Shown: in pieces, positions 6,894 through 46,118 of the stretch
Numbering within the stretch: the first letter of the stretch is position 1
Layout of the letters: the number at the start of each line of letters is the position of its first letter
Origin: Thermomicrobium sp. 4228-Ro
GTDB taxonomy: Bacteria > Chloroflexota > Chloroflexia > Thermomicrobiales > Thermomicrobiaceae
Assembly (NCBI RefSeq): GCF_026241205.1
Contig: NZ_JAPFQM010000001.1
Coordinates: forward strand, 1,674,001 to 1,738,000
DNA length: 64,000 nucleotides
Direction: 5' to 3'
Translations under genes and position numbers: made by a program
The notes under the pieces: model-generated
Databases searched by the model: none
What the model was told of the DNA's origin: nothing
The model's input: only the letters and a program-made list of their open reading frames with translations

Positions 6894-6939
6894 CCGGTCG
6901 GACAGGGAGACCGCTAAGCGATGCGGAGGAGGGACGGAC

Positions 6940-8920
<1,981 letters not shown>

Positions 8921-8945
8921 GCGCTGCTCCGACGCGAACGCTCGG

Positions 8946-8977
8946 CCGGGGATGCTGCCCAGCATCCCCGGTTTTTT
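8946..8977 (+). terminator. Rho-independent terminator of groESL
   Basis: CCGGGGATGCTG (8946-8957) and CAGCATCCCCGG (8960-8971) form a 12-bp stem with a tiny loop, followed by six T (8972-8977). It lies just past the groEL stop and separates the operon from the envelope cluster. Confidence 0.95.
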
Positions 8978-9048
8978 GTTCCCGCTCCCTCCGGGCCGAG
9001 TACACTGCAGCCGGTCAGGCGGTGTGGGATGCCTGGCAGGAGAGGGCG

Positions 9049-14563: not shown

Positions 14564-14631
14564 CGTTCGGTACGGGCTGCTTTTTGTCGCGCGCTGAGGC
14601 ACACTCGTGTTATCTGCATGGTGGGTTATCG

Positions 14632-15180: not shown

Positions 15181-15204
15181 GAAACGCCCCGCTAACGCGG
15201 GGCG
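15181..15204 (-). terminator. Terminator of tRNA-Glu
   Basis: CGCCCCGC and GCGGGGCG form a perfect 8-bp stem with a 4-base loop (15185-15204). On the minus strand it is followed by GTTTCTC. It lies 8 bp downstream of the tRNA. Confidence 0.8.
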
Positions 15205-15212
15205 ACCTTGCG

Positions 15213-15286
15213 TGGCGCATACGGGATTCGAACCCGTGATCTCCGCCTTGAGAGGGCGGTGTCCTTGGCCGCTAGACGAATGCGCC
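15213..15286 (-). tRNA. tRNA-Glu (anticodon CTC)
   Basis: The minus strand folds as a full cloverleaf: acceptor GGCGCAT paired with ATGCGCC, anticodon stem CCGCC/GGCGG with loop CTCTCAA (anticodon CTC), and T-loop GGGTTCGAATCCC. The discriminator is A and the CCA end is not encoded. It has its own promoter and terminator. Confidence 0.96.
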
Positions 15287-15300
15287 GCGGCACTGCGGAG

Positions 15301-15330
15301 AGTATAGCAGGTTCGCTCCTCCGCTGTCCA
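15301..15330 (-). promoter_or_regulatory. Promoter of tRNA-Glu
   Basis: On the minus strand, TGGACA (15330-15325) and TATACT (15306-15301) are 18 bp apart. The expected start is a few bases before the mature tRNA 5' end. Confidence 0.7.
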
Positions 15331-15331
15331 G

Positions 15332-27494: not shown

Positions 27495-30400
27495 ATGCGT
27501 TCGCTCTACGAAACGTGCGAACCCCGTCCGGAGGTCCTGCAGGGCGAACTCCGGGAAGAGCTGTTCGCTGCCCGCCTGAAGGACGTGCTCGATGGTGTCG
27601 CCGATCCGGTCTATCAGGATCCGGAGCGATTCTTCGAGAACACGTATCCGACCGAAGGTCTCCGGACCTTGCTCCGTGAGGTCTTGGGGCGGCTGACTGG
27701 CCGGAATCCTGCCGCCAATCCGATCGTCCGACTGGAAACGCCGTTCGGTGGCGGGAAGACGCACAGCCTCATCGCACTGTACCATGCCGTCCGCGGCAGT
27801 CCCGCTGCTGAGCGCCTGGTCGATCCTGGATTGATTCCGGATCCTGGTTCGGTGCGGGTCGCTGGTATCGTCGGATCGGAACTCGACCCGACGACCGGCG
27901 TGCTCCATCCGGACGTAACGACCTACACGCTCTGGGGCGAACTCGCCTACCAGTTGGGTGGTGTCGCGGGATACCGACTCGTCGAAGAGTCGGACCGCCG
28001 GACCAAGGCGGCGCCAGGTTCCGGGCTCCTCGACCACCTGATCGGTGACCGTCCGACCTTGATCCTCCTCGACGAGATCGCGCGGTACCTGCGCGCCGCG
28101 CAAGCGGTGCCGACGGGGACAGGCGAGGGGAACGTCGCCGGCCAGACGATCGCGTTTCTCATGTCGCTCCTCGAGTTCGCAGCGAGCCGGCAACGAGTGG
28201 TCGTGGTCCTCACACTCGCTGACCCGAGCGATGCCTTCGGCCAGGAAAGCGAGCAGCTGCGTGCGCATCTCGCCGAGGCTCGGCGCGTTGCGGCGCGCAA
28301 CGAGCGCGTGCTGACCCCGGCGGCTGAGGACGAGACCGCATCGATCGTCGCGCACCGGCTGTTCCGCACGATCGACCGGCACGCCGCGCAGGAGGTCAGT
28401 CGAGCGTATCTGGCAGCGTACGCGACGGCTGTCGAGCACGGCGCGCCCTTGCCGCACGAGGTGACGACCGCTGCGTATGCGGCCCAGATCGAACGGAGCT
28501 ACCCGTTCCACCCGGAACTCCTGCGCGTGCTGAGCCTGCGTGTCGGGACGATCCCCAACTTCCAGCGCACGCGCGGCGCGCTGCGGCTGCTGGCTCTCGT
28601 CGTGCGCCGATTGTGGGAGCAGCGGCTCCTTCGGTTGTCGCTCATCCATCCGCACCACGTCGATCTGGGCTTCCCTCCGATCGTCGAAGATCTGACCAGT
28701 CGGCTCGACCGGCCGGTGTTCAAGCAGGTCATCGAGGCGGATATCGTCTCGCAGGTGCCCGGCCATCCTGCTCACGCGCAGAGCGTCGACACGGCGTTCC
28801 TCGCCGCTGGTCGGCCGCCGTACGGCCAGCGGCTGGCGACCACCATCTTTCTCCACAGCCTGGTGCACGGCCAGGCTGCCGGTATCCAGAAGCCCACGCT
28901 CTTCGCCAACGTGCTCGAGCCAGGGGACGATCCCGGCGCACTGGAACGCGCGCTCACCGAACTGGTGGAACGGTGCTGGTATCTCGCTGCCGAGCGCGAA
29001 CACTACCGCTTCGGCACCGAGGTGCAGCTCAACAAGGTGATCGCGGACGAGATGGCGGTCGTTCCGGTCTCGCTGGCCAAGGCGAAACTCGAGGAGCGGA
29101 TCCGTCAGATCTGGACGCGTGGTGCGCTCGAGCCGGTCACTTTCCCGCACGAACCGGCCGATATACCGGACGACGCTGGGACACCGAAACTGGTCATCGT
29201 CCACTTCGATGCGGCAACGGCGACAGCGGCCGAGGACGCGCCACCGGACTTCGTCCGTCACCTGTTCGAGTACGCTGGGAGCGCTGGCAGCTACCGTCGC
29301 TACCGGAACAACCTGGTCTTCCTGGTCTGCGATCAGGGCCAGCGGAGCCAGCTGATCGACACGGCCCGCAAGTACCTCGCGATCGAGCGGTTGAACGATC
29401 CCAGCCGGCTCGCCGACTTCACGCAGGAGCAGCAGCGCCGCCTGCGCGAACTGCGCGAGCAGACCGAACTCGAACTGCGGGTCGCGATCACCCGGGCCTA
29501 TCGGTTCTTGTACTACCCGAGCGGCGACCTGGCGCCGGGGCAGTCCCAACTCGCTCGCGAGATCCTGCCGGCGCAAGACCAGGGTACGGTGCGGCGGGCC
29601 CAGACCGATGTCGTCGTCCAAGCGCTGAAGCGGTTGGAGAAGGTGCGCACGAGCGATGACCAGCCGCTCGCGCCAGCCTACGTCCGTGCGCGCGCCTGGA
29701 GCGGGCAACAGGGCAAGGTCAGTACGGAAGAAATCCGCCGCACCTTCGCGCAGCGGGTCAACCTGCCGATCTTGCTCGATCCGAACGTGCTCAAGCGGAT
29801 CATCCGCGACGGCATCGTGAGCGGAGAGTGGATCTATTACGACGCTGCCACCCGCAAGGGCTACGACAAGGACTCGCCCTTGCCGACGGTCGAACTCTCC
29901 GAAGAGACCTATCTCTACACGCCCGAGGAAGCAGCCCGCGTCGGGATCGAGGTGGAACGCCCCAGGCCGAAGCCGAACGGTAACGGCGACAACGGCCAGA
30001 AAATGGCAACGTGCCCGGTCTGTGGGCAACCGGCAGCGCAGTGTGTCTGCGGGATCGTCATCGAGCGGAGGGAACGACCCGTCCTCGAGGCTGCGGGGGT
30101 GGCCCCGCAGGCGTTCCAATCGCTGATCGACCAGGCGGGGGACAAGCGGGTCGAGCGCCTCGCTCGTCTGGAACTCACACTGGAGGCGAGCGGCGCTGCG
30201 GCGGTGCAGGAAATTCGGGCGCTCGGGCTGCTGCTCGCGCAGGTTCCCCGCGCGCGCCTGCGGGTGGATATGCAGTATATCGCTGGATTTTCGGAGGACG
30301 AGCGCGTCACGTTGCAGTTCGCTGGAGGCCTCTCCCGCTGGCAGGCAGTGCGGCAGGTCGTGGAAACGGTGGGTGGGCAGGCCAGCCAGGCAGTGCTGAC

Positions 30401-30548
30401 CGTCACGGTGATCGCCGAGAGCGAGGAGGATGGCTTTTCCGTGGCCGAGGACGTCGTCGGCTTGCGTGACTATGTCGAGCATCTGCCCTTCGGGAAAATC
30501 GCGCTGCGGGCAGAGGCGGTCGAGGACGGAGCGGAGGGGAAGCGGTGA
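27495..30548 (+). CDS. DUF499-type P-loop ATPase (first gene of the candidate defence system)
   Basis: A 1017-residue ATPase. Walker A is ETPFGGGKTH (81-90), Walker B LILLDEIARYL (189-199). The N-terminus LYETCEPRPEVLQGEL and overall length fit the DUF499 family, which is known from genomes to lie beside DUF1156 methylases. A Cys cluster CPVCGQPAAQCVCG (about 839-852) is probably a zinc ribbon, followed by a C-terminal domain of about 160 residues with SEDERVTLQFAGG. The ATG at 27495 follows GAGGAGGGCCG, and the stop overlaps the next GTG as GTGA. The family is proposed to act in DNA modification or defence. The ATPase activity is secure, the pathway is inferred. GC content resembles the host. 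Confidence 0.85.
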   Translation: MRSLYETCEPRPEVLQGELREELFAARLKDVLDGVADPVYQDPERFFENTYPTEGLRTLLREVLGRLTGRNPAANPIVRLETPFGGGKTHSLIALYHAVRGSPAAERLVDPGLIPDPGSVRVAGIVGSELDPTTGVLHPDVTTYTLWGELAYQLGGVAGYRLVEESDRRTKAAPGSGLLDHLIGDRPTLILLDEIARYLRAAQAVPTGTGEGNVAGQTIAFLMSLLEFAASRQRVVVVLTLADPSDAFGQESEQLRAHLAEARRVAARNERVLTPAAEDETASIVAHRLFRTIDRHAAQEVSRAYLAAYATAVEHGAPLPHEVTTAAYAAQIERSYPFHPELLRVLSLRVGTIPNFQRTRGALRLLALVVRRLWEQRLLRLSLIHPHHVDLGFPPIVEDLTSRLDRPVFKQVIEADIVSQVPGHPAHAQSVDTAFLAAGRPPYGQRLATTIFLHSLVHGQAAGIQKPTLFANVLEPGDDPGALERALTELVERCWYLAAEREHYRFGTEVQLNKVIADEMAVVPVSLAKAKLEERIRQIWTRGALEPVTFPHEPADIPDDAGTPKLVIVHFDAATATAAEDAPPDFVRHLFEYAGSAGSYRRYRNNLVFLVCDQGQRSQLIDTARKYLAIERLNDPSRLADFTQEQQRRLRELREQTELELRVAITRAYRFLYYPSGDLAPGQSQLAREILPAQDQGTVRRAQTDVVVQALKRLEKVRTSDDQPLAPAYVRARAWSGQQGKVSTEEIRRTFAQRVNLPILLDPNVLKRIIRDGIVSGEWIYYDAATRKGYDKDSPLPTVELSEETYLYTPEEAARVGIEVERPRPKPNGNGDNGQKMATCPVCGQPAAQCVCGIVIERRERPVLEAAGVAPQAFQSLIDQAGDKRVERLARLELTLEASGAAAVQEIRALGLLLAQVPRARLRVDMQYIAGFSEDERVTLQFAGGLSRWQAVRQVVETVGGQASQAVLTVTVIAESEEDGFSVAEDVVGLRDYVEHLPFGKIALRAEAVEDGAEGKR

Positions 30549-30997
30549 GCGACGATCGGCGATGGCGGTTCCAGCTGCGCGTGCAGCCGCTGGGTGACGA
30601 GGCATACCGCCTGATCGTGCTCCAGCAGCGTCCGGCGAGCAACGGGCGCCGGCCGACCGTCCAGCGGGTCGCCGCACTGGACGGGACACCGCTTTTGGTG
30701 GCGCTCGACCAGGTGCTCGAGTTGCTGCGCCGGGACGGATACCGGAGCTTGCGCGATACCCGAGCGAGCGGCGGCGAGGACCGGATGGTAGCACTCAGCG
30801 AGGCGACTGGCGTGCGGCTCGGGCTGCTCTTCCTCGCCCTCCGTCCGTTGCGGCGGGTCGAGCGGATGGAGCGCGTCGCGGCCGGTGTACGCGCGATGAC
30901 CGACGAAGAGGCGTACTACTGGTTCAGCAAATGCGTGGCGCCTGGTACCGGTTACCGCGCCCGCCGTGCTCTGCGCATCCTGGTCGCGGGGGAATAA
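30545..30997 (+). CDS. Small companion protein of the DUF499 ATPase
   Basis: A 150-residue protein of unknown function, translationally coupled to the ATPase by a GTGA overlap at 30545-30548. The first about 65 residues show alternating hydrophobic strands (WRFQLRVQPL, AYRLIVLQQRP); the second half is helical (GVRLGLLFLALRPLRRVERMERVAAGVRAM) and ends with YWFSKC...ARRALRILVAG. No catalytic motif is seen. A small protein with a similar position occurs in DUF499/DUF1156 loci, so it is likely a structural or accessory subunit of that complex. That is inference from position. Confidence 0.7.
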   Translation: MSDDRRWRFQLRVQPLGDEAYRLIVLQQRPASNGRRPTVQRVAALDGTPLLVALDQVLELLRRDGYRSLRDTRASGGEDRMVALSEATGVRLGLLFLALRPLRRVERMERVAAGVRAMTDEEAYYWFSKCVAPGTGYRARRALRILVAGE

Positions 30998-31146
30998 AGT
31001 ACTATTCAAGCTGCTGTCCTCGTTCCGTAACAGCATTCGATTCGTCTCGTCGTCGGCGCGTTGGCGGAGCCCTAAGGCACTGAGGAGGTGTCGGTCCGCT
31101 ATCGGATGGAAGGATGTCGGATGGTCAGGTCTGGAGGTCGGTTCTC
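30998..31146. other. 149-bp gap between the DUF499 pair and the lower-GC module
   Basis: No gene, terminator hairpin or clear promoter was recognised. Base composition falls here, marking the start of the lower-GC segment. A short direct repeat-like ATCGGATG/GTCGGATG occurs at about 31102-31122. Confidence 0.4.
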
Positions 31147-32040
31147 GTGAGCCATTTGATCCGTATGACCGAAGAGCCTGCCGAGACGAATGGTGACGAG
31201 CAACTGAGCCGGTTCCGGCGAGAGATCGGTGAGGTGATTCGCGAATGCCGTCAGGTCGAGCAGGCAGCTCGGAGCGCTCGTCAGCTCTGGGAAGAGGTGC
31301 TTGCGCTCTTGCCACAAGCGGCTGAACGCCCCTTCGGCCTTCTCGCCAAGCTCGACAAGCTGGAGAGCGTCGTACCCGAACGTGCCGCGCTCGTGGCTGC
31401 GTTGCGTTCCTGGGCTGACACCTTGGCGGAGGAGCAGCTCACGGACTATACCCGATTGCTGCGTCGAATTCTGGGTCCTGACGAGACGGTCGAGGGGCGT
31501 CTCCAGGATGGCTATCGAATCCGCAGCCTGATCGAGGTTCGGGTCGACTATCAAAAATATGAGGCGACCATAGCGACTCCATTCCGTGCGCGTCGACTCA
31601 CTGGTGATATTTCCGTATATGCCGTCGCAGAAGCCATCCGGTCAGAACTCGAGCGGTTATTCGATCGACCGTTCCACGCAGGGCGTTTTGCCAAAGAACT
31701 CTTCGAAGCGTACCAGCTCGCGCTCGTCCAGTCGGGAACTGAACGGAGTCCCGGGGAGCCTGTTCCGATCCTTGCTGTCCACAAATTCGTTGTCGTTCTC
31801 CGGCAGTCACCGAAGGCGTTCCAAAGCGTCGATTCACGGCACTTCCGACCCTATCCGCCTGACGAGTTCGCCGTCGATCTCGGAAGGTTGCTGGCTACTG
31901 GCCAGGACGAGGTCGATGGCTGGCGGCTACGCCTGCATCCGATTCGCAAAGTCAAGGATTCGTTGTACGTCGTGAACTTCGGGACCGGGATCGGGCAAAA
32001 CTACGGATTGCTCTCCTTCCAGCGAGTCCATGTGGGGTGA
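31147..32040 (+). CDS. Unrecognised protein of the candidate defence system
   Basis: A 297-residue protein I cannot place in a family. The N-terminal about 110 residues are rich in charged and Leu residues (FRREIGEVIRECRQVEQAARS, LWEEVLALLPQAA) and probably form coiled-coil helices. A compact C-terminal domain follows, with VDYQKYEATIATPFRARRLTGDISVYAVAEAI and PVPILAVHKFVVVLRQSPKA. The GTG at 31147 follows GGAGGT eight bases upstream; an ATG at 31114 is in frame but lacks a good SD. It ends 5 bp before the first BrxD-like gene start, so the two are probably coupled. GC is lower than the flanking DNA. No nuclease or helicase motif is visible. Confidence 0.65.
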   Translation: MSHLIRMTEEPAETNGDEQLSRFRREIGEVIRECRQVEQAARSARQLWEEVLALLPQAAERPFGLLAKLDKLESVVPERAALVAALRSWADTLAEEQLTDYTRLLRRILGPDETVEGRLQDGYRIRSLIEVRVDYQKYEATIATPFRARRLTGDISVYAVAEAIRSELERLFDRPFHAGRFAKELFEAYQLALVQSGTERSPGEPVPILAVHKFVVVLRQSPKAFQSVDSRHFRPYPPDEFAVDLGRLLATGQDEVDGWRLRLHPIRKVKDSLYVVNFGTGIGQNYGLLSFQRVHVG

Positions 32041-32045
32041 GCTGT

Positions 32046-33302
32046 ATGGAAACACTCAGCCGGAGGGATGCCATAACCATCATCGAGGCGTTGAAGCGTG
32101 GTACCCCGCCACCACCGAGCCTCGCCAGTTACCTGCACGTGGGCCGAGGGCGGTGGGTCGAAGGGATGTGCTGGTATCTGGATGTTGTCCGGGCAGACGC
32201 GCTCTCGGCGGTGCGGTTGATTGCTGGTGACTATGGAAGCGGGAAGACGCATTTCCTCCGAGTAGCGGAGCAACGAGCCTATGAACGCGCGTTCGTCGTC
32301 TCCGAAGTAACACTGACCAAAGATGTTCGACTGGATCGCTTCGAGACAATTTGGAAGAAGATAATGGACAATCTCACACACGAAGATGCAAATGCGCCTA
32401 TGAACGGCATCGAGGAATTATTGAATTACTGGTGTGAGAAGGTTGCGGAATCCGGACAAGTATCGAATGAGCTAGCGAAGTTGAATGCGTTGCGTGGACT
32501 CGATCCGGATTTCCGGCAGGCAATCGGAGGTTATCTCCAGCAGTGGGTCAGGAACGGCGGAAGGCGAGGCGAGCTACTGCCCTATCTACAATGGTTTGGC
32601 GGGGATGCGGTACGCCCACCGGGCGTTCGGGGGCGCATCGACCGTGCCAGTGCGCGTGCCATGCTGCGCTCGCTGATCCTGTTCCTTCGCCATATCGGCT
32701 ACAGTGGGCTGGTGCTGATTTTCGACGAGCTGGAGCTGATTCTTCATCAGCGGGTGAACGTCCGCGATGCGTGCTATGAAGTCGTTCGACAATTTGTGGA
32801 TAATGCTGATAACTTAGCAGGGTTACTTCTAATTTTCTCTATTACGGAACAAATGATTCTGGATACGAGTAGAGGGATTCCGAGTTATCCCGCTCTCTAT
32901 CAACGGATCGGTGGTTTGATTCGATCGTTTTCCGAGTATGACTACCGTTCCGTGTTGATCAACCTCAACCACTTGCCGCTCCGAAAGGAGGAACTCGTCG
33001 AGCTGGCGCGACGCATTCGACAGGTGCACGCGGTAGCCTACTCGTGGCCAGCCGCTGACCGCGTTCGGGATTCGTATCTCGATCGTTTCGCTGAGCACGC
33101 TCTCGCTACCGGAGAAGTCCCTGCACCACGCTTCCTCGTGCAACTCACCGTGACAGTTCTCGATAGTGCCCAGCAGAATCCCCACCTGTCCATCGAGGAG
33201 CTCATACCCTCGAAGAGCGAGATCCTGAAAGAGATTCGTAGTACCGAACGAGGTCGGTATGCTCCGTGGGATGAAGCAGATGTCGCGTTCGGCGCTCGAT
33301 GA
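32046..33302 (+). CDS. BrxD-like P-loop ATPase A (DUF2791-type)
   Basis: A 418-residue AAA/STAND-like ATPase. Walker A is GDYGSGKT (61-68) and Walker B LVLIFDELELI (222-232), followed by a long helical C-terminal half. The order RRDAITIIEALKRGTPP...IAGDYGSGKTHFLR and the acidic Walker B resemble BrxD, the ATPase of some BREX types that is encoded beside the Lhr-like helicase BrxHI. The ATG at 32046 follows GGGGTGAG; GTG 32037 is in frame but has no SD. It overlaps the second ATPase gene by 44 bp. One 60-base stretch inside it (32341-32400) is 25/60 GC, far below the surrounding genome, so it looks recently acquired. Confidence 0.78.
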   Translation: METLSRRDAITIIEALKRGTPPPPSLASYLHVGRGRWVEGMCWYLDVVRADALSAVRLIAGDYGSGKTHFLRVAEQRAYERAFVVSEVTLTKDVRLDRFETIWKKIMDNLTHEDANAPMNGIEELLNYWCEKVAESGQVSNELAKLNALRGLDPDFRQAIGGYLQQWVRNGGRRGELLPYLQWFGGDAVRPPGVRGRIDRASARAMLRSLILFLRHIGYSGLVLIFDELELILHQRVNVRDACYEVVRQFVDNADNLAGLLLIFSITEQMILDTSRGIPSYPALYQRIGGLIRSFSEYDYRSVLINLNHLPLRKEELVELARRIRQVHAVAYSWPAADRVRDSYLDRFAEHALATGEVPAPRFLVQLTVTVLDSAQQNPHLSIEELIPSKSEILKEIRSTERGRYAPWDEADVAFGAR

Positions 33303-34272
33303 GGAGATACCGACCGATCGGCACGCGTGCCGGCGAGCCCTGATCGCTCTCAAAGCCGGGTACCCGCCGCGCGACGCGCTGCGCTATCTGAGCGTTGGAA
33401 TGACCGGTGTCTTGGCGGAAATCGACAATGTTTTGGTGCAGGCGGGCCGTGGTGCGCGAGTCAGACCTCTGGTCGTCAGTGGCGACTACGGTGAGGGAAA
33501 GAGCCATACTTTGCGACTGATCGCGACAGAAGCGGAGCGACAGCACTTCGCCTGGGTCGTCGTGACGCACGACCGCCAACAGAACATCGGCTTGCATAAG
33601 CCCGCCTGGCTCTTCCAACATATCCTGTGGCAACTCCGGTGGAGCTACCCGGCCCTCGACCTTCGCCGATGGGATAGCTGGCTGCACGGTCAACCGGATT
33701 ACAGGACCGATCGCAGCATGCGCCGTCAGCTCCGCGGTTGCTTGGCAGAGTTGACGCAGAGCCTTCGGTCACAGGGGTTTCGCGGCTTCGTCTTGTGCCT
33801 GGACGAGTTGGAGAATGTGGCGCTTTTGGCCGGAAACCAAAGGGCGATCTTCGGAGAGGTTCTCCGTCATTTGCTCGATGGCCCCGAGTCGCATGTCGTC
33901 CTCGTACTAGCCGCGACGTCTGGTCTGAGTGCGGCAGGTCGATGGGGTACCCTCCTTCGCCCTCCAGCCCTGGATGAGAGATCGGCACTGATACTGACGT
34001 ATCGCATCCAGCGGTTGCATAGTGCCGCGTTCGACTGGCGACCGCCGATCGGTCCGGTACCGATTTTCGAGAAGGCTTGGAAGGCCTCTTCGGCTGTACC
34101 CTCTGGGCGCTGGCGTACGTTCGTGCAGAGTGTCGTCATCCACCTGGAGGTGTTGGAGCAGAACGGCTGGCTGCCGACCGAACACGTCTCTCGTCCGGCA
34201 CTTCGAGCGGAAAGCGCGCCGGATGTCCTGTCGCGTATCACCCGGTTCGCTCGCCTTCTCGGCATCCGGTAA
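33259..34272 (+). CDS. BrxD-like P-loop ATPase B (divergent paralog of the preceding gene)
   Basis: A 337-residue ATPase with Walker A GDYGEGKS (75-82) and Walker B VLCLDELENV (178-187). The start region RHACRRALIALKAGYPPRDALRYL aligns in style with the preceding gene's RRDAITIIEALKRGTPPPPSLASYL, and the spacing from Walker A to Walker B is shorter. It therefore appears to be a diverged tandem copy. The ATG at 33259 follows GAGGT and overlaps the upstream gene by 44 bp; ATGs at 33271 and 33280 are alternatives. A heteromeric ATPase pair is a reasonable idea. Homology to DUF2791/BrxD is by eye and less certain than for copy A. Confidence 0.7.
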   Translation: MLRGMKQMSRSALDEEIPTDRHACRRALIALKAGYPPRDALRYLSVGMTGVLAEIDNVLVQAGRGARVRPLVVSGDYGEGKSHTLRLIATEAERQHFAWVVVTHDRQQNIGLHKPAWLFQHILWQLRWSYPALDLRRWDSWLHGQPDYRTDRSMRRQLRGCLAELTQSLRSQGFRGFVLCLDELENVALLAGNQRAIFGEVLRHLLDGPESHVVLVLAATSGLSAAGRWGTLLRPPALDERSALILTYRIQRLHSAAFDWRPPIGPVPIFEKAWKASSAVPSGRWRTFVQSVVIHLEVLEQNGWLPTEHVSRPALRAESAPDVLSRITRFARLLGIR

Positions 34273-34368
34273 TGCGGAGTTCTGGGGTTGTACTCGCGGA
34301 GAAACGCTCGCTGCGGTCGCCAGCGGTTGGGGAGGAGCGCAGCGGCTCGAGCGTCAGCGGTTTGTACC

Positions 34369-34391
34369 GTCGGATGGACCGCATGTCCGAC
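34369..34391. repeat. Inverted repeat before the Lhr-like helicase gene
   Basis: GTCGGA (34369-34374) and TCCGAC (34386-34391) flank an 11-base spacer in the 142-bp gap between ATPase B and the helicase. It could be an operator or chance. Confidence 0.3.
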
Positions 34392-34414
34392 GCAACTAGT
34401 CAGGAGGGCTCTCC

Positions 34415-36565
34415 GTGGTTGGGCGGGAGATGCTGCCGCGCGTGTACGACGCGTTTTTCGGAACGTTCGGCCGACTGCGTCCAGTGCAAGAGCGAGCCAT
34501 CCCGTTGGTCCTCCAGCGCCAGAATCTCCTGATCATTGCCCCGACGGGTTCCGGCAAAACCGAAGCAGTCGTCGCACCACTGGTGGAGATGGCGCTCGAT
34601 CACCCACAGTCGACCTTCGCGCTGTACATCGCACCGACGCGAGCCTTGGTCAACGATCTCGCAGTGCGGTTATCGGAGCGTCTCAGCGCTTGTGGCCTGC
34701 GGCTGGCAGTCCGACATGGCGAGTCGAAAACCGTGCAGGGGCGGGACGCACCGGCGATGATTCTGACGACTCCTGAGTCGCTCGAGGTCATGCTCGCGGG
34801 CAGCGACGACTACGTGACCGCCCGGCTCCGTGAGGTCCAGGCGGTTGTCATCGACGAGACGCACCTGTTCTACGGCACGCCCCGCGGCGTGCAGCTCGGC
34901 TGCCTTCTCGAGCGGTTGAAGCAGTACACGCGACACCCGCTCCAGCGACTGTGCCTTTCCGCGACGGTCGCCGAGCCCGAGCTGGTTGCAGCGTTCTTTC
35001 GCGGGAGCGACGCACCCTTCAGGATCATCAGCGTCCCTGGTGTTCGTGACCTGGTCGTCCATCTCGATGTCTTGGAGTCGGACTCGGTCGAACGACTCGC
35101 GGATATCACCGCGTACTGGTTGACGGAAATCTTGGAGCGACATCGAAAAGTCCTGGTGTTCGCGAATACCCGCGTTCACTGCGACTGGCTCGCCTGGAAG
35201 TTGAGCGAGCGTGTTCGGAACGTTCCTGTGCTCCTCCATTACTCGTCGTTGCACGGGACATACCGCAAGCATGTCGAACGGACCTTCCGTGAGGCATCCC
35301 GTGGCGTCTGTATCGCGACCAGCACCCTCGAACTCGGTATCGATATCGGAGACATCGATGCTGTTGCGATGTGGGGCGCGCCGAATACCGTGACGAGCTT
35401 CCTGCAACGGATCGGCAGGGGCAACCGTCGTTCCGGGACGTGCATCGTCTATGCTGGTTGTCCCGCGTTCTATCCCTCGGGGCGGGACGCCGATCCGACC
35501 TCGCACGCATTGACCTTCGCCGCGCTGACCCACTGCGCCGTGCATGGCGTTCTGGAGAGCGTATCCGTGCCCCGGCATTATTCCGTACTCGTCCAGCAGC
35601 TCCTCGCACTGTGTCACCGATGGGGTGCGGTCGCCGCCGATGGCTTCTTCCGGGTCGTGGAACGTCCCCCAGCATTCGCGACGCTCGAGACATTGGCCGC
35701 CATCCTCGACGGTCTGGCGCAGGCAGGCGTGCTCGAGTTCGACTCCCGCCGTCAGCTCTGGTGGCCGACCGATCGCTTCCATCGCTTGTGGGAGACCGGC
35801 CTCTTCTGGGGGAATATCCCCGAGCAGGTCGAGTCGCTCGTCCTGCGGAAGCGCGGGGAGCGAGACCTTCCGATCGCGGGACTCCCGAGAGAGTACTCGC
35901 GTGGACTTCGTCCTGGAAATATCGTGGTCGTTGCCGGCAAACCGCGGCTGGTACTCGAGGTCAAAGAGACCATCGTGCGCGTGCGCGATCTCGAGGTAAA
36001 CGAGGCCCAGTTCGTCCGCTACTCGACACCGCCGGAACCGACATCGGCCACGGTTGCCCGGGCGATCGCGGATGTCCTGACGATGACCGATGCCGAGCTC
36101 GCCCGGTTACCGATCCGATATACCGAAGCGGCGAGGGAGCGCTTGCGCCGGTGCCGAAGTGTCCTGCAGCCGCTCCTGGCCACGCGCGAGATGGTGGCCC
36201 CGGAGCCGGACGGCCGTTGGGTCGCCTACACGTTCGCCGGGACGAACGCCAACCGGCTCCTGGAACTCTGGCTCCAGAAACATGGAACGCGCGTGCTCGA
36301 TGCCGATGCGTGGCGCGTGTGGTGCGCGAGCGAGCCGCCGCTTCACGTTTTGGCTCGGTGTACGGCTGATGCCTTGGCCTCGCGGGTCCGATCGGAATGG
36401 AAGCGATTCGTGAGGATGGTTCCCTTGCCCCCGGCGTACCGTTTTCTCCCCGAGGAGCTGAAGCAGGAGGAGCTGATATCGGTGCTCGACCTCGAGACCT
36501 GTGCACGACTCTTGCAGGCGTTGCTGGATTCGACCGCCCGGACGGGCGTCACGCACGAGAGATGA
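34415..36565 (+). CDS. Lhr-like DEAD-family helicase (BrxHI-like)
   Basis: A 716-residue superfamily 2 helicase. Motif I is APTGSGKTEAVV (42-53), motif II VIDETHLFYG (DETH at 147-150), motif III LSAT (181-184), motif VI QRIGRGNRR (about 330-338). After about residue 370 there is a C-terminal part resembling Lhr-family helicases and the BREX helicase BrxHI. The GTG at 34415 has CAGGAGGG six bases upstream. Beside two BrxD-like ATPases this recreates the BrxD-BrxHI pair, likely acting on DNA. It lacks the very long C-terminus of full Lhr. Strand polarity and substrate are unknown. Confidence 0.88.
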   Translation: MVGREMLPRVYDAFFGTFGRLRPVQERAIPLVLQRQNLLIIAPTGSGKTEAVVAPLVEMALDHPQSTFALYIAPTRALVNDLAVRLSERLSACGLRLAVRHGESKTVQGRDAPAMILTTPESLEVMLAGSDDYVTARLREVQAVVIDETHLFYGTPRGVQLGCLLERLKQYTRHPLQRLCLSATVAEPELVAAFFRGSDAPFRIISVPGVRDLVVHLDVLESDSVERLADITAYWLTEILERHRKVLVFANTRVHCDWLAWKLSERVRNVPVLLHYSSLHGTYRKHVERTFREASRGVCIATSTLELGIDIGDIDAVAMWGAPNTVTSFLQRIGRGNRRSGTCIVYAGCPAFYPSGRDADPTSHALTFAALTHCAVHGVLESVSVPRHYSVLVQQLLALCHRWGAVAADGFFRVVERPPAFATLETLAAILDGLAQAGVLEFDSRRQLWWPTDRFHRLWETGLFWGNIPEQVESLVLRKRGERDLPIAGLPREYSRGLRPGNIVVVAGKPRLVLEVKETIVRVRDLEVNEAQFVRYSTPPEPTSATVARAIADVLTMTDAELARLPIRYTEAARERLRRCRSVLQPLLATREMVAPEPDGRWVAYTFAGTNANRLLELWLQKHGTRVLDADAWRVWCASEPPLHVLARCTADALASRVRSEWKRFVRMVPLPPAYRFLPEELKQEELISVLDLETCARLLQALLDSTARTGVTHER

Positions 36566-37049
36566 GCCATCGCGCGCGGGCGCAACGACAGGACCTGAGA
36601 GAGTATCCTCCTCGCCGTGGTGGTGGCACGTCGGTCGTGAAAAGTGGCGTCAGCCGCTCGTCTCTCGTAGGAACTCCGACGACCGAGGGAGGAGCTGCGG
36701 GCGATGGCTCGCCGTTGGACGCGAGTGTGGATCAGCTCGGGCCAGCCGACGTGTCCTCGGACGGCCGATGACATACTCTGTGTCGTCCTGTCTGTTCTGG
36801 CAGGATCTTGGTCAGGTTCCCTGGATGTGCGGAAGCCGACGCGCCGTGCGATCCATCGGTCGTCCGGTTGCCGGAGGGGACAACGATCGGCAGGATAAAG
36901 GGGGATCGATGGAAGTCCGGATCGCTTCCGATGGAAATCGAGGCCGACACGTCGTCGCGCTTCTCGAGTTCATCTTCGAACCAGCGTGTGCTGCGGTGAC
37001 TCTGATGCTTGTGAAGGACGACACCAGCGAGGATCAGGCTCGATAGACG
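36566..37049. other. Gap with only weak small ORFs between helicase and methylase genes
   Basis: No recognised gene. Three short frames are worth recording: ATG 36562 (overlapping the helicase stop as ATGA; 69 codons, low complexity) to 36771; ATG 36704 (SD GGGAGGAG; 64 codons) to 36898; and ATG 36909 (SD AAAGGGGG; 45 codons) ending at 37046, three bases before the next candidate. None shows a domain. The DNA is compositionally poor for coding and could be a decayed gene. Confidence 0.4.
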
Positions 37050-37469
37050 ATGAGCGACCGGATAGTGCAGGAGATGAAACAAATTGCCGAGATCTTGGGC
37101 AAAATCCATACGGTTCTGCAGAGACCGGAAACCCCTGTACGGTTCTCCGGTTCGCTGATGAACCACACGGACTGCAACGTGGTCGTCCCCGTCGATGCGC
37201 CATACTGCGTCGAGCCTTCCCTGCGACTTCCGTCGCTCTTTTCGCGCACGGTCGTAAGGAAGGTCGCGGGCGTGTTCCAGTGCGACGAGACGGGACCCCG
37301 GCGTCCTGAACTGCCGGCCCTGGTCGGGAATCTCTCTCAGGTGGCGAACGACCTCGTCCACGAGGGGCCGACGAGCGTCGAGCGCGTCGGGGTCATACGC
37401 GAGGGAGCCCGTCCTGGATCGATGCTCGTGCCGACGGGGATCCATCCGCGATGGTTGGAGGGCAGATGA
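37050..37469 (+). CDS. Possible small protein translationally coupled to the methylase
   Basis: A 139-residue frame starting MSDRIVQEMKQIAEILGKI. The N-terminal 25 residues look like an amphipathic helix. The rest is not recognised and has no catalytic motif. Support comes from its TGA overlapping the methylase ATG as ATGA at 37466-37469, a common coupling signal in this window. Against it, there is no strong SD, and a long antisense frame (36732-37499) covers the same DNA. The gene could encode a short accessory subunit or be noncoding. Confidence 0.35.
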   Translation: MSDRIVQEMKQIAEILGKIHTVLQRPETPVRFSGSLMNHTDCNVVVPVDAPYCVEPSLRLPSLFSRTVVRKVAGVFQCDETGPRRPELPALVGNLSQVANDLVHEGPTSVERVGVIREGARPGSMLVPTGIHPRWLEGR

Positions 37470-40402
37470 ATCGGGAAACTGCTCTGGCCAGTCGCCCACT
37501 CCTCATCGAAGACTGGCTGCCGATCCAGGAGGTAGGGATCGAGGCGCGACGTGAGAACAGCACTGGCCAGCATCCCCCGCCCAACCGCCTCCACGTCTGG
37601 TGGGCGCGGCGGCCGCTGGTGGTCAGCCGCGCGGCGGTGCTGGCGAGTCTCCTCCCCGCCTGGCAGCCCGACTGGCCCGAGCCGCTGCGCCAGCGCTTCC
37701 CCACCCGCGACGCCTACCACGCCTGGGTGCGCTGGTTGCTGGGGATCCACGGGGAATTAGCCTCTGCCTGGAGGACGATCCAACAGGCGAGGGCGATAGG
37801 AAAACGTATCGACAACCCTTTCACGCACGGGAGAGCTTTTACTTTCAACTTGTCTGACCGTGAAGCCGAAGAACTCTCGAGTGTCTTCCAAGCTACATGG
37901 GAGAGCCCGGAAATTGCTGTGCTGGATCCGACCGCTGGCGGAGGATCTATCCCGCTCGAAGCGCTCCGTTTGGGCTTAACCGTTCACGCCAACGAGCTGA
38001 ATCCGGTGGCGAGCGTAATCTTGCTTGCTACTCTCGATTATCCGTCTAGGTTCGGTGACGATTTGGTCACTGACCTGGTACGATGGGGGCACAGGCTGAG
38101 TGAGTACGTACGTGCCTCGATAGGCAATTTCTATGTAGGAATGAACTCGATAGAGGAGCCGTTAACCTACCTCTGGGCGCGCACGGTCGCCTGCCCGCAG
38201 ACCGGCAAGCCCATCCCCCTCTCCCCCAACTGGTGGCTGCAGCGCGACGACCGTGCCCGCGTCGCCGTGCGGCTGCTCGCCCACCCCGACTGGCCCACCT
38301 GCCGCTTCGCGATCGTGCGCGGCCGCGAGGCCGACGCGCTCGGCGACCAGGGGACGATCCGCCGCGGCGTCGCCGTTTCCCCCTGGACGGGTGACGTGGT
38401 CGACGACGAGTACATCAAGCGCGAGGCCCAGGCCGGGCGGATGGGCCAGCAGCTCTATGCCGTCGTCGTCAAGACCCCGCGCGGCGTCGACTTCCGGTTG
38501 CCGAACGAGGCCGACCTGGCGGCTGCCGCCGCGGCCGAGCAGGAACTCACCCGGCGTCTCCCCGGCTGGCTCGCCCGCGACCTCGTACCCGACGAGGAGA
38601 TTCCGGAGGCGAGCAGCGACCCGCGACCGCGCCGCTACGGCATGACCCGCTGGCGCGACCTGTTCGCCCCGCGCCAGCTCCTGGCGCTGGGAACGGCGGT
38701 CGAGGCGCTGCGCGCGCTCGAGCCGGCGATCCGGGCGGAGCTCCCGCCCGACCGGGCTCGCGCTGTCGTCACGTACCTCGCGCTCGCGCTCGACAAGCTG
38801 GCGGACTGGAACTCACGGCAGTGCACGTGGCACCCGAATCGCCAAGTGCTTGGGCACACGTTTCAACGCCACGACTTCAGCATGAAGTGGAGTTTCGCCG
38901 AGATGGCGGTGGTCGCCGCCGGCAAGGGGCTCGACTGGGCGATCGACCAGGTGGTCGATGCCTACCGCGGCATCGCCCGCTTGGCCCAGCCTACCCGGCT
39001 CCCGCTGTGGCAGCGCACCGGTCGGCCGCCGGTCGAAAGGTTGCGCATCACTCAGGGGGACGCGCGCCACCTCGGTCATCTCGCTGACGGTTCCGTCCAC
39101 TTGGTCTGCATCGACCCGCCGTACTACGACAATGTCCAGTACGCCGAGCTCTCCGACTACTTCTACGTCTGGCTCAAGCGGACGGTCGGCCACCTCTATC
39201 CCGACTGGTTCGCGAGGCCGCTCACCGACAAGGACGCCGAGGCGGTCGCCAATCCGGTGCGCTTCGCGGGGCTGGGTGGGAGCCGCCCGGCCCGCGAGCT
39301 GGCCCGCCAGGACTACGAGCGCAAGATGCAGGCGATCTTCCGGGAGTGCAGCCGCGTCCTGCGGCCCGACGGTGTCCTCACCGTCCTGTTCACCCACAAG
39401 CAGGTCGAGGCCTGGGACGCCCTGGCGACGGCGCTCATCGAAGCGGGCTTCCAGATCGTCGCCTCCTGGCCGGTGCATACCGAGAGCGAGCACAGCCTGC
39501 ACCAGGCCAAGAAGAACGCAGCCCAGAGCACCATCCTCCTCGCCTGCCGCAAGCGCCCGCCGGGCGACGGGCCGGTCTGGTGGGACGAGCTGCGCGGCGT
39601 GCTGATCCGGCGGGTGCGCGAGCGGGCGCAGGAGCTGGCTGCGCTCGGGATCGGCGGGGTCGACCTGCTCCTGGCCGCCTTCGGGCCAGCGCTCTCGGTC
39701 ATCTCGGCGCGCTGGCCGGCCCTGACCAGCGAGGTCGATCCGAAGACCGGGAAGCCGCTCGTCCTGCGGCCGGAGACAGCGCTCGATCTAGCTCGCGAGG
39801 AGGTGCTGCGCTTGCGCCGCGAGCGGCTCCTGCACGGGCAGAGCGCACGGTTCGATGCCGCGACCGACTGGTACCTCTTCGCCTGGGATACCTTCCGGGC
39901 ACGCGAGTTCCCGGCCGACGAGGCGCGCAAGCTGGCCCTGGCGGTCGGGCTCGACCTCGATGCCGACATCATTCGCGGCGCGCGGCTGGTCGAGCGACGC
40001 AGCAATACGGTACGGCTGCTGGAGCCGAGCGAGCGGGTCCGTCGCCGGGCGGTGGATCCCGGGGCGACGTCGTTCGCGCGCCTGGTCGATGCCGCCCACG
40101 CTGCGCTGGTGCTCTACGCTGAGGACGGAGCGGGCGCCTGCCGGGAGTTCCTGCGGCGGGCCGGACTCCTGCAGTCGTCGGAGTTCCGCCAGCTGCTCCA
40201 GGCCTTGCTGGAGGCGGTCCCGCGCACGCGGGGGAGGGAGGGAACCTTCCTGCTCCCGGAAGCGCAAGTGCTCGACGCCATGCGGCTCGCGCTCTTCCCG
40301 GAGCTCGAGGTGCCGCCCGAGCCGGAACCGGTCGCCCGGGAGGTCCAGCGGTCGCTCTTCGACGAGGCGAGCGGCGAGGAGGACGACGAGGCAGTGGAGT
40401 GA
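37466..40402 (+). CDS. DUF1156-type DNA methylase (predicted N6-adenine or N4-cytosine)
   Basis: A 978-residue methylase of the DUF1156/COG1743 type. RLHVWWARRPL (41-51) is the family signature. The SAM-binding motif is DPTAGGGS (154-161), and the catalytic DPPYYD (550-555) is of the D/N-PP-Y/F class of amino-methyltransferases. A Cys-rich segment, VACPQTGKPIPLSPNWW, marks the zinc-ribbon position, but only one Cys remains. ATG 37466 has GGAGGG just upstream. It is the modification partner expected beside DUF499; with the system's ATPases and helicases it may mark self DNA. Composition is mosaic: codons about 96-235 are low in GC, the rest high. Confidence 0.86.
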   Translation: MNRETALASRPLLIEDWLPIQEVGIEARRENSTGQHPPPNRLHVWWARRPLVVSRAAVLASLLPAWQPDWPEPLRQRFPTRDAYHAWVRWLLGIHGELASAWRTIQQARAIGKRIDNPFTHGRAFTFNLSDREAEELSSVFQATWESPEIAVLDPTAGGGSIPLEALRLGLTVHANELNPVASVILLATLDYPSRFGDDLVTDLVRWGHRLSEYVRASIGNFYVGMNSIEEPLTYLWARTVACPQTGKPIPLSPNWWLQRDDRARVAVRLLAHPDWPTCRFAIVRGREADALGDQGTIRRGVAVSPWTGDVVDDEYIKREAQAGRMGQQLYAVVVKTPRGVDFRLPNEADLAAAAAAEQELTRRLPGWLARDLVPDEEIPEASSDPRPRRYGMTRWRDLFAPRQLLALGTAVEALRALEPAIRAELPPDRARAVVTYLALALDKLADWNSRQCTWHPNRQVLGHTFQRHDFSMKWSFAEMAVVAAGKGLDWAIDQVVDAYRGIARLAQPTRLPLWQRTGRPPVERLRITQGDARHLGHLADGSVHLVCIDPPYYDNVQYAELSDYFYVWLKRTVGHLYPDWFARPLTDKDAEAVANPVRFAGLGGSRPARELARQDYERKMQAIFRECSRVLRPDGVLTVLFTHKQVEAWDALATALIEAGFQIVASWPVHTESEHSLHQAKKNAAQSTILLACRKRPPGDGPVWWDELRGVLIRRVRERAQELAALGIGGVDLLLAAFGPALSVISARWPALTSEVDPKTGKPLVLRPETALDLAREEVLRLRRERLLHGQSARFDAATDWYLFAWDTFRAREFPADEARKLALAVGLDLDADIIRGARLVERRSNTVRLLEPSERVRRRAVDPGATSFARLVDAAHAALVLYAEDGAGACREFLRRAGLLQSSEFRQLLQALLEAVPRTRGREGTFLLPEAQVLDAMRLALFPELEVPPEPEPVAREVQRSLFDEASGEEDDEAVE

Positions 40403-40409
40403 GGTCGCG

Positions 40410-43400
40410 GTGGGCTGCTTACGGGCGTACCCGTTCCGCATCACTTACGGTCCCGCGGACGACCGGCTGCACGAGTTCTACTTGCCGGCGCTGGAGCGGA
40501 GCGTGGCCTACGACCGTTCGGCCGGATTCTTCTCCAGTTCGGCGCTCGCTATCGCTGCTGCCGGTATCGCCCGGCTGATCCAGAACGGCGGCCGGATGCG
40601 CCTGCTGGTCGGGGCGGACCTGCAACCGGAGGACGTCGACGCGATCGTCGCGGGGGAGGAACTCGCCGCGGTCGTCCGACAGCGCCTGCTGGCCCGGCTG
40701 ACGACGCCCGAGGACGAGCTGATGCGGGACCGGCTGGCCGCGCTGGCCTGGATGGTGGCGGAAGGGCTTCTGGAAGTCCGCGTCGTCCTCCCGTGCGATG
40801 CGACCGGCCGCCCGTTACCCGCCGAGCGAGCCGAAGAGTACTTCCATGCCAAGGAAGGCGTCTTCACCGACGCGCACGGTGACCGGATCGCCTTCAGCGG
40901 CAGCGTGAACGAATCGGTTCACGGTTGGCAACACAACTACGAGCAGTTCGCCGTCTACTTCTCTTGGGACACCAGCCGACCGTATCTCGAGCAAGTCGTG
41001 CACCGCTTCGAGCGGTTGTGGACGAACGCGGAGCCCGGCTGGATCAGCCTGCCCCTTCCCGAGGCCGTCCGGGCTGAATTGCTGCGGTACCGGCCCTCGG
41101 CGCCCCCGGTGCGGGACCCTCTGGAACGGACGGTCGGTGTGCGGGAACAGCGAGAAGGCTATACGGTCGAGCGGGGCGACGCTCGGGCGGTGCTGCTGGC
41201 CCGTTTCCTGCGGGACGCGCCGCTCCTGGTCGGGGCCGAAGGTCTCGGCGTCGCGACGGCGGCGATCCAGCCGTGGCCGCACCAGCTGCGCGTCAGCCGG
41301 GCGTTGATCGAGCGGTTTCCGGAGCGGTTCTTGCTGGCCGACGAGGTGGGGCTGGGCAAGACGATCGAGGTCGGGCTGGCGCTGCGGCAGCTCGTCCTCG
41401 ACCGGCGCGTGCAGCGGGCACTCCTTCTGGTACCGCACAGCGTCATCCGCCAGTGGCAGGAGGAGCTGTACGAGAAGTTCTGTCTCGATGTCCCGCGCTA
41501 CGAGGACGGGAAGTTCTGGTCCGTCCGGGGAGGAGCCTGGGAGCCGCGCACCGCGAATCCGTTCGCCAGTGAGCCGGTCTTCCTCGTCTCGAGCCAGCTG
41601 GCGAAGCGACGCGATCGCAGCGCCGACGTGCTGGACGCTGGCCCGTGGGACCTCGTCGTCGTCGACGAGGCACACCACGCGCGGCGCGGCGGGTTCGAAC
41701 GCGGCCTGGACCAGCCGAACCGCCTGCTGGCGCTGCTGCGCCAGCTGAGCGAGCGCACCCGTGGCCTGTGGCTGCTTTCGGCCACGCCCATGCAGCTGCA
41801 TCCGATCGAGCTGTGGGACCTGCTCGTCTTGCTCGGACTCGGCGGGCGTTGGGGTGCCAGCCCGAGCGCGTTCCTCCGCTTCTACGAGGAACTCCGGCGC
41901 GGCCCCGCCGAGCTCGATTGGTCCTTCGTCCTCGGGCTGGTGCGGGAAGAGGTCCGGCTGCAAGGGCTCGATCCGGTCTTCGCCCGGGAGGCCGAGAAGG
42001 CATTGGACGTCGTCGGCTGGGAGGAGGTACGCCGGATCCTGTCCGGCGAATCCCAGCGGTCGCCGCATCACCTATCGCCGCCGCAGCGGCAGTGGCTGTT
42101 CAGCGGACTCCGGCGCCATACGCCGCTGCGGCGCGTGATGTTCCGGCACACGCGTGCGCTCCTCCGCCGGTACGTCGAGCGGGGATTGCTGGAGGCCCAG
42201 ATCCCGACGCGCCACCCGCGACCGGTCTGGATCGAGATGAGCCCAGTCGAACGGGAGCTCTACGAGCGGATCGAGGAGTACACGAGCCAGTTCTACGGGC
42301 GGTACGAGGCGGAGCGACCCGGTCTCGGCTTCGTGATGACGGTGTACCGCCGGCGGTTGACGTCCAGCTTTTTCGCTGCCCGCTGTAGCCTGGAACGTCG
42401 GTTGCAGTATCTGCGGCAACAACGGCCGGATCTGGGGATTTCGGACGAGGACGTCGAGGACGAGGAACTCGAGCTGGACATCAGCGAAACGCTGGCATCG
42501 TTGCCGGAAGGTCTGGCCCAGGCCTACCGGGACGAGATCGCCTATCTCGAGGATTTCGTGGCTGAGCTGGCGCGTCTCGGCGAGGACTCGAAGTTCGCCT
42601 GCCTGCACGAGCAGCTGCAGGAGTTGTTCCGCCGTCACGAGACGGTCGCTGTCTTTACCCAGTACACCGACACCATGGACTACCTCAGGGAGCGCCTCGT
42701 CGCCGTGTATGGCAGCCGGGTGGCCTGCTACTCGGGCCGGGGCGGCGAGCGCTGGCGGGGCGGCCATTGGGTGCCGGTGACGAAGGAGGAGATCAAGAAC
42801 GCCTTCCGCGAGGGGCGTGACGTGACGATCCTGCTCTGCACCGATGCCGCGAGCGAGGGGCTCAACCTGCAGACCTGTGGCGCACTCGTCAACTACGACC
42901 TGCCCTGGAACCCGATGCGGGTCGAGCAGCGGATCGGTCGCTTCGATCGGATCGGCCAGCGGTATCCCCGGGTCGATATCCTGAACTTCTTCTACGCCGA
43001 CTCGGTCGAGGCGGAGATCTACCGGCGTCTCAGCGACCGGATCGACTGGTTCGAAACGGTGGTAGGCCCTCTCCAACCGATCCTCACGCAGGTGGCGCGC
43101 AGCATCCAGCGCGTCGCCTTGCAGCCGCGGCAGACGCGCGAGCAGGTGCTGCGGGACGAGATCGCCGAGATCCAGCGGCGTCTCGACGCGCACGAGCAAG
43201 CCTCGCTCGACCTCGACGCTACGCTCTACGACGAGACCTTCCGCGAGACCATCGGGACACCGGTTTCGCTGGCCGATCTCGAGCGGGTCGTGCCCACGCT
43301 CCCTGGCCTGGCCGAGCGGTTCCGGCCGCATCCGGAGATCGTTGGGGCCTGGCTGGTCAGCTGGCATGACCGGCTCGAGGCAGTCACCTTCGATCCGGAG

Positions 43401-44063
43401 GTGTACGACCGCCACAGCGGCACGGTCCGCTTCCTGACCTACGGTGATCCGTTCTTGCTGGAACTGCTCGAGCAGGTGGACGCGAGCGGTAGCGCGCCTG
43501 CACCCGGCATCGTGCGGCTGGAACACGCTGGGCCACCACCCCGTTGTGGGTACTACCGGGTCGAGGGTGATCGGGCCGTCTGGGTGCGCACACTGAGCGA
43601 GTTGGAAGAGGCGCAGCCGACCGGAGCGGCGACCGTGGAACCGCCAGGGTTGGCTGCAGCCGAGGCGGACTTTTCCGCACGGCTCGCCAGGGAGCACGAC
43701 CGGTACGCCGAGCACGAGCGGCGCCAGCGAGAGCTGCTCGACACGCAGCTGCTCGAGCGGGCGCGCCAGGTGCTGGTCGAAGCGGCCCTGGTCGAAATCG
43801 CGCTCGGTCGCAAGCCCGCGTTGGCCGGCGGGCACGACCCATTGACGTTCGGCAGAGAAGCGGTGCGCGGGTTGGCGCGCCACGGGTATCCGTTCGCACC
43901 GCTGCTCCGCTTGGTCGGGAGCCAGCAGCCGCTCGAGGCACGGGAGGACGACCCTCACTGGGAAGAACTCCGTGCGCTCTCGGTCGAGCAACTGCAGGCC
44001 CGCTGGCGGAGCTTACGCCGAGAGGCCGAAGAGCTCGTGCACCGCTTGGCTCCGCCCCAGTGA
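40410..44063 (+). CDS. PLD-domain SNF2-family helicase
   Basis: A 1217-residue fusion. The N-terminal about 190 residues are phospholipase-D/nuclease-like (YDRSAGFFSSSALAIAAAG, FHAKEGVFTD, FSGSVNES), though only a single HKD-like motif is visible. SNF2 motifs follow: Walker A ADEVGLGKT (310-318), DEAH (about 420), SATPM (about 457), and motif VI QRIGRFDRIGQ (about 840). A charged C-terminal third includes coiled-coil stretches (EHERRQRELLDTQLLERAR). It resembles helicase subunits of DISARM-like and DUF1156-linked loci. GTG 40410 has GAGG five bases upstream and lies 7 bp after the methylase stop. It may translocate on and cut DNA; nuclease activity is unproven. Confidence 0.85.
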   Translation: MGCLRAYPFRITYGPADDRLHEFYLPALERSVAYDRSAGFFSSSALAIAAAGIARLIQNGGRMRLLVGADLQPEDVDAIVAGEELAAVVRQRLLARLTTPEDELMRDRLAALAWMVAEGLLEVRVVLPCDATGRPLPAERAEEYFHAKEGVFTDAHGDRIAFSGSVNESVHGWQHNYEQFAVYFSWDTSRPYLEQVVHRFERLWTNAEPGWISLPLPEAVRAELLRYRPSAPPVRDPLERTVGVREQREGYTVERGDARAVLLARFLRDAPLLVGAEGLGVATAAIQPWPHQLRVSRALIERFPERFLLADEVGLGKTIEVGLALRQLVLDRRVQRALLLVPHSVIRQWQEELYEKFCLDVPRYEDGKFWSVRGGAWEPRTANPFASEPVFLVSSQLAKRRDRSADVLDAGPWDLVVVDEAHHARRGGFERGLDQPNRLLALLRQLSERTRGLWLLSATPMQLHPIELWDLLVLLGLGGRWGASPSAFLRFYEELRRGPAELDWSFVLGLVREEVRLQGLDPVFAREAEKALDVVGWEEVRRILSGESQRSPHHLSPPQRQWLFSGLRRHTPLRRVMFRHTRALLRRYVERGLLEAQIPTRHPRPVWIEMSPVERELYERIEEYTSQFYGRYEAERPGLGFVMTVYRRRLTSSFFAARCSLERRLQYLRQQRPDLGISDEDVEDEELELDISETLASLPEGLAQAYRDEIAYLEDFVAELARLGEDSKFACLHEQLQELFRRHETVAVFTQYTDTMDYLRERLVAVYGSRVACYSGRGGERWRGGHWVPVTKEEIKNAFREGRDVTILLCTDAASEGLNLQTCGALVNYDLPWNPMRVEQRIGRFDRIGQRYPRVDILNFFYADSVEAEIYRRLSDRIDWFETVVGPLQPILTQVARSIQRVALQPRQTREQVLRDEIAEIQRRLDAHEQASLDLDATLYDETFRETIGTPVSLADLERVVPTLPGLAERFRPHPEIVGAWLVSWHDRLEAVTFDPEVYDRHSGTVRFLTYGDPFLLELLEQVDASGSAPAPGIVRLEHAGPPPRCGYYRVEGDRAVWVRTLSELEEAQPTGAATVEPPGLAAAEADFSARLAREHDRYAEHERRQRELLDTQLLERARQVLVEAALVEIALGRKPALAGGHDPLTFGREAVRGLARHGYPFAPLLRLVGSQQPLEAREDDPHWEELRALSVEQLQARWRSLRREAEELVHRLAPPQ

Positions 44064-44355
44064 GCGAGGGGATGCGGGGCGCGTTCTCGCGAGCCGCTCG
44101 CGCAGCGTGCCGTCCCGAGCGTGCGCTCGCACGGTCCGGCAACGCGTCGCCGGGCCGAGCCCCACGCTCCGTGCATGCAGCCGAAGCGACCCAGTCGCAG
44201 CCTCGGCGCGCGGACGGTGCGCCGCTGGGTCGGGCAGCTCCCGAGTCTTTCAGCGAGCGGACGAAACGAGCCCGCCGTGATTCCTCGGCTTCCGGCGGGC
44301 CCGCTCGATGCGTCGCTGGCGCGGACGAGATGACCCGTCCGCGGTACCTGCGCCC
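44064..44355. other. Convergent gap after the helicase; possible terminator
   Basis: No gene is recognised on either strand. GCCCGCC (44270-44276) and GGCGGGC (44294-44300) form a 7-bp stem with a 17-base loop. On the minus strand it is followed by TCGTTTCG, so it could end the ABC transporter operon. The T run is weak. Confidence 0.35.
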
Positions 44356-46098: not shown

Positions 46099-46118
46099 CG
46101 TCCTCCTCCTCTCGGTTC

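Follow-up and report, generated by a model that had tools for sequence, protein, structure and literature searches.

The closest described counterpart of the locus studied here is the Hma system, which combines a DUF499 ATPase, a DUF1156 methylase and an SNF2 helicase (PMC8565338) and was recast in 2026 as the DUF499-centred BREX-Related (BR) systems (PMC12839542). That paper gives a standalone DUF3780 gene as the hallmark of BR Type-2, present in 98% of members, and reports that nuclease effectors can sit within BR/BREX core loci. The mechanism proposed in the literature is restriction guided by methylation, with an ORC-like ATPase serving as platform and an SNF2-PLD protein as motor nuclease. 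DUF499 and BrxD are both ORC/Cdc6-like, and BrxD has been proposed to load BrxHI (PMC7641849; PMC12839542).

Within the 64,000-nucleotide stretch analysed (the window), which comes from a 3.07 Mb Thermomicrobiaceae genome, we found a locus that resembles Hma/BR in encoding a DUF499 ATPase, a DUF1156 N6-adenine methylase and a Swi2/Snf2 helicase. The helicase carries an HKD/PLD domain at its N-terminus, so the core points towards BR Type-2. The locus differs in having DUF7680 in the place of the Type-2 DUF3780, for which it has no match, and in having a four-gene helicase cassette, X-BrxD1-BrxD2-helicase, which follows DUF499 and DUF7680 and precedes the methylase. PglZ, the BR Type-3 feature, is absent from the scanned ORFs. 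With somewhat better than even confidence, we interpret the locus as a DUF7680-bearing, DUF499-centred (Hma/BREX-Related) restriction-modification-like system with a self-contained immune cassette nested in a cargo slot. The original prediction had named a match to an already named system as a check, and such a match exists for the DUF499 half, which is the published Hma/BR; the cassette matches no named system found, and both it and the way it is nested in different immune operons appear to be undescribed in the searchable literature.

Gene content of the locus

ORF and family scans resolve positions 27495-44063 into eight co-oriented plus-strand genes, in the order DUF499 ATPase, DUF7680, X, BrxD1, BrxD2, helicase, DUF1156 methylase and PLD-SNF2:

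27495..30548, plus strand: DUF499 ORC/Cdc6-like AAA+ ATPase, HmaC-like (PF04465 8e-39; PADLOC HmaC 7e-107, 357 bits; NCBIfam DUF499_antiphage 7e-76, below its cut-off; GGGKT and LILLDE motifs)
30545..30997, plus strand: DUF7680 small protein, overlapping the DUF499 3′ end (PF24728 1e-36)
31114..32040, plus strand: X, cassette gene 1 (no Pfam, PADLOC or NCBIfam family)
32037..33302, plus strand: BrxD1, BrxD-like ORC/Cdc6-type ATPase (PF10923, BrxC_BrxD, 9e-61, 206 bits; GDYGSGKT, VLIFDE)
33259..34272, plus strand: BrxD2, divergent second BrxC/D-like ATPase (PF10923 3e-14, N-terminal match only; GDYGEGKS)
34415..36565, plus strand: SF2 DEAD helicase of BrxHI/SngC/Lhr type (PADLOC BrxHI 2e-99, SngC 2e-82)
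36566..37450, no strand: remainder of the cargo slot, without a convincing gene call
37451..40402, plus strand: DUF1156 DNA adenine methylase, HmaB-like (PF06634 3e-19; HmaB 2e-88; DPTAGGGS, DPPY)
40410 (approximate)..44063, plus strand: PLD(HKD)-SNF2 helicase-nuclease (NCBIfam phospholipD_antiphage 3e-119, below cut-off; PADLOC PLD_Helicase 3e-82; PF00176 and PF00271; HmaA match; N-terminal HAKEG...GSVNES)

The DUF499/DUF7680 and X/BrxD1 pairs each overlap by 4 bp, BrxD1 and BrxD2 overlap by about 40 bp, and about 8 bp separate the methylase from SNF2; the remaining gaps between blocks measure about 117, 143 and 886 bp. The Walker, DEAD-helicase, DPPY and PLD motifs are intact, and all the enzymes keep their catalytic motifs. 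The original prediction of a single plus-strand gene set is borne out by the ORFs and families and by the repetition of their order in a second genus, and the profile matches agree with its description of a composite in which DUF499, DUF1156 and PLD-SNF2 genes stand with BrxD/BrxHI-like ones. It listed the ATPases, helicases and methylase correctly and missed DUF7680. As it had stated, the scanned ORFs of the window include no PglZ, BrxC, BrxL or standard PglX, and profile searches recovered no PglW either.

A plus-strand ORF at 44308-46341 was considered as a ninth gene; it has no family, and the strand facing it carries an ORF next to ABC-transporter genes. It is most likely an antisense artefact, and the gene set therefore ends at 44063. 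A tRNA was also called within the methylase gene, at 39780-39871; this call is probably false.

The DUF499 core and its cargo slot

DUF7680 was found in 17 of the 400 genomes of the phylum that were searched. It follows DUF499 in all 15 further loci fetched, as well as in HR28 and in the second genus, and the methylase comes next, cargo aside, wherever the contig reached that far. From this gene order, DUF7680 appears to be the constant partner of one DUF499/BR subtype, a previously unrecognised part that is apparently undescribed within the literature searched. We also considered whether DUF7680 is a divergent DUF3780. The two share a similar colinear motif order, which is suggestive, and the profile comparison (hhalign probability 3%, E 0.014) does not establish homology.

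Seven loci (L026, L082, L087, L090, L092, L094, L095) have an interval of -3 to 322 bp between DUF7680 and the methylase, and in the remaining ones it measures 1.0-6.9 kb. Among the contents of the longer intervals, L083 has an OLD-TOPRIM ATPase and L086 a Schlafen/AlbA_2 protein together with HicB; L086 has in addition a GajB-like UvrD helicase placed between its methylase and SNF2 genes. L088 holds an Mrr_N protein with a Shedu-like candidate, L084, L091, L093 and L096 hold small proteins of no recognised family, and the window and L014/L031 hold the X-BrxD1-BrxD2-helicase cassette. At 36566-37450, where the window has no convincing gene, relatives carry a Zn-ribbon gene, an 'MLKLPLL' gene, or both. 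Judged by what it contains, the DUF7680-methylase boundary is a slot that is either empty or loaded with exchangeable cargo of apparently immune type. Immune operons thus appear to be built by nesting, with a fixed boundary of a restriction-like core taking up such cargo. The embedded effectors reported in PMC12839542 are similar in being accessory immune genes inside a core operon, but they are nucleases, whereas the cargo here is a multi-gene ATPase-helicase cassette, of which the consulted parts of that paper give no description.

In L088 (10150-15392), a Thermomicrobiaceae slot, the Shedu-like candidate (PDC-S11) is a putative nuclease, and the cargo also includes a small gene of AbrB-like type.

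The four-gene cassette and its relatives

Homologues of X were found in 13 loci in a genome-contig search, with BrxD-like genes adjoining X in every one of them. A helicase follows X and the ATPases wherever the contig was long enough, except in the divergent L039 and L042, where none was recognised. BrxD2 recurs as the second ATPase gene and, like X, is a conserved member of the cassette. The AF2 model of X (~300 aa, pLDDT 88.5) has a helical N-terminus, a beta domain and a winged-helix-like C-terminus. It had no match in the PDB by Foldseek at E<=0.001, and VIA-align placed it with the winged helices of ORC1, Cdt1 and RctB at Z 5-7 (best 7.1), matches that are too weak to build on and, according to the tool, possibly a common arrangement. 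The modelled C-terminal domain resembles the ORC1 and Cdt1 winged helices weakly. No relatives of X were found in IMG/VR viral contigs.

In a maximum-likelihood tree with few outgroups and only 3 BrxHI entries, 12/12 cassette helicases fall in one clade (support 100/99), separate from the BrxHI clade (100/100) and from SngC, which argues against the cassette helicase being the BrxHI of BREX. BrxD2 forms one group with a support of just 67/91, and BrxD1 is not resolved as a single clade. The 'BREX-style pair' of the original prediction was right as to the BrxD- and BrxHI-like families and too narrow in that the unit is a four-gene cassette with X and a second ATPase, whose helicase lies outside the BrxHI clade. 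The cassette is like the BREX Type-2 BrxD-BrxHI dyad in pairing an ORC/Cdc6-like ATPase with an Lhr-like helicase, and it differs in its additional X and second ATPase and in its helicase clade. The window also has no PglX, PglZ, BrxC or PglW, which places the locus outside BREX of any type as far as the scanned ORFs go. Shango (SngABC) is similar in its broad ATPase (BrxD/SngB) and helicase (BrxHI/SngC) families and in the order small gene, ATPase, helicase; however, it has one ATPase where the cassette has two, and the helicases belong to separate clades. We also considered X as SngA, which in annotated plasmid loci is a large TerB-N protein of ~840 aa. X is of very different size and matches neither TerB nor SngA, and this assignment was rejected. 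No paper naming the cassette was found in the openly searchable literature.

A protein search with the helicase recovered the same four genes on two plasmids. In D. tiedjei they stand alone; in Aulosira they lie directly downstream of a BREX PglX-PglZ-BrxD-BrxHI set, adjoining the genuine BREX BrxD-BrxHI pair. The Bacteroidia genome KatS3mg026 (L032) carries it inside a type I-B CRISPR operon, cas8b-cas7-cas5-[cassette]-cas3, where X begins 4 bp past cas5, and the helicase gene and cas3 share 8 bp. A cassette from Verrucomicrobia (L035) ends a few bp ahead of a DruE-like helicase gene, with an IIG/DrmM-like methylase 3.7 kb upstream. Standalone chromosomal cassettes occur in cyanobacteria, Anaerolineales, Phycisphaerae and Armatimonadetes, and Chloroflexota and cyanobacteria also have more divergent X-ATPase-ATPase sets, some of which lack a neighbouring helicase. 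Being found alone as well as beside or inside other immune systems, the cassette looks like a reusable defence part. We put forward tentatively, as a possibility, that it is an unnamed portable module, an ORC/Cdc6-like helicase loader together with its helicase, that plugs into immune operons of unrelated mechanism (BR/Hma, I-B CRISPR, Druantia-like and BREX), boosting or broadening each, and that also works solo. One cargo of the slot would then be a conserved, putative helicase-loader cassette common to CRISPR, BREX and Druantia-like loci.

Several of these loci have further features. In L032 (5070-6629), the CRISPR I-B/cassette run is directly preceded by genes for a ThaI restriction enzyme and its methylase. 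Cyanobacterial divergent X-ATPase-ATPase sets with no recognisable helicase alongside are found in L118 (8691-11932), L119 (6800-10022), L120 and L121; those in L118 and L119 adjoin ordinary chromosomal genes and are possibly a domesticated form. Another cyanobacterial cassette (L117, 5950-8349) has its second ATPase gene broken by a transposase-like ORF and adjoins two type I R-M methylase-like genes. In a genome of the same order (L018, 9999-16771), an X-like gene with one in-frame stop is followed by three BrxD-like ATPase genes and the helicase, which suggests further ATPase duplication.

History and possible function of the composite

All eight genes occur in identical order, at 57-80% amino acid identity, in the MAG Tumba.bins.21 from a second Thermomicrobiaceae genus, and each gene of the locus has a dN much lower than its dS. 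This order in an independent MAG of another genus, along with the dN and dS values, indicates that the locus is not a chance arrangement. The intact composite is present in only two genomes, and there is one decayed case; all three belong to Thermomicrobiaceae. The original prediction had proposed the co-occurrence of the two halves as a check, and they do stand together in another genus; each half also occurs alone, which points to a nested combination instead of one indivisible system. The reading of the locus as one integrated eight-component BREX-like machine, in which BrxD/BrxHI-like genes replace the missing BREX parts, draws on the conserved co-orientation, the overlaps within blocks and the identical order in two genera. 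We consider it very improbable, as the core is intact without the cassette in most DUF7680 loci and found alone in many genomes, the cassette is widespread without the core, and its helicase is not of the BrxHI clade.

The decayed case comes from HR28, a member of the window's genus, which has a core without cassette on contig 3 and, on contig 1, an intact cassette that has on its flanks a broken DUF7680 and remnants of the Zn-ribbon and MLKLPLL genes, so the composite was probably once there and then decayed. Between HR28 and the second genus the helicase has a dN of 0.062 and a dS of 0.56, and from these values the HR28 cassette seems to have stayed open under purifying selection. GC3 is lower in the cassette than in the core, both in the window (0.60-0.77 vs 0.81-0.86) and in the second genus (0.70-0.79 vs 0.91-0.96), and when the two composites are compared, the cassette has the greater synonymous divergence. 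Together these favour separate histories, bearing in mind that composition affects such estimates; the two composites were maybe assembled separately, and their halves are maybe not co-adapted.

These observations bear on a serious rival to our interpretation, plain co-location, in which two independent defence systems share a landing site, and perhaps a transcript, through island clustering and have no common mechanism. We give it less than even confidence. It would account for core and cassette each being found alone, for the heterogeneous slot cargo, for the differences in composition and divergence, and for an HR28 cassette that is intact while the BR genes around it are relics. However, in two genera the cassette sits inside the operon at an identical gene boundary, in another genome its genes run up against or into cas5 and cas3, a closer arrangement than plain clustering would give, and HR28 keeps a complete core elsewhere that could act in trans.

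Under the preferred interpretation of a BR-type core with a nested cassette, we infer the functions of both. In the core, host DNA would be marked by the DUF1156 methylase. DUF499, an ORC-like ATPase, would assemble together with DUF7680 on unmarked DNA, and the SNF2 protein, a motor bearing a PLD nuclease at its N-terminus, would translocate along this DNA and cut it. For the cassette, the simplest idea, by analogy, is a helicase loader aimed at invading DNA: the winged-helix-like X and the two ORC/Cdc6-type ATPases would recognise DNA that is invading or being replicated, and would load the 3′-5′ helicase. The cassette may in this way add an unwinding or replication-blocking layer beside several host operons, and could act alone. 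With the cassette, the role of a BrxD-type ATPase with its partner helicase becomes testable in a compact four-gene unit.

The source genome of the window has a second BR-type locus on contig 6 (L028, ~6492-15646, and L099), with DUF499, DUF3780, a DUF1156 methylase and SNF2; the matches to DUF499, the methylase and SNF2 are distributed over different reading frames, so this locus looks decayed.
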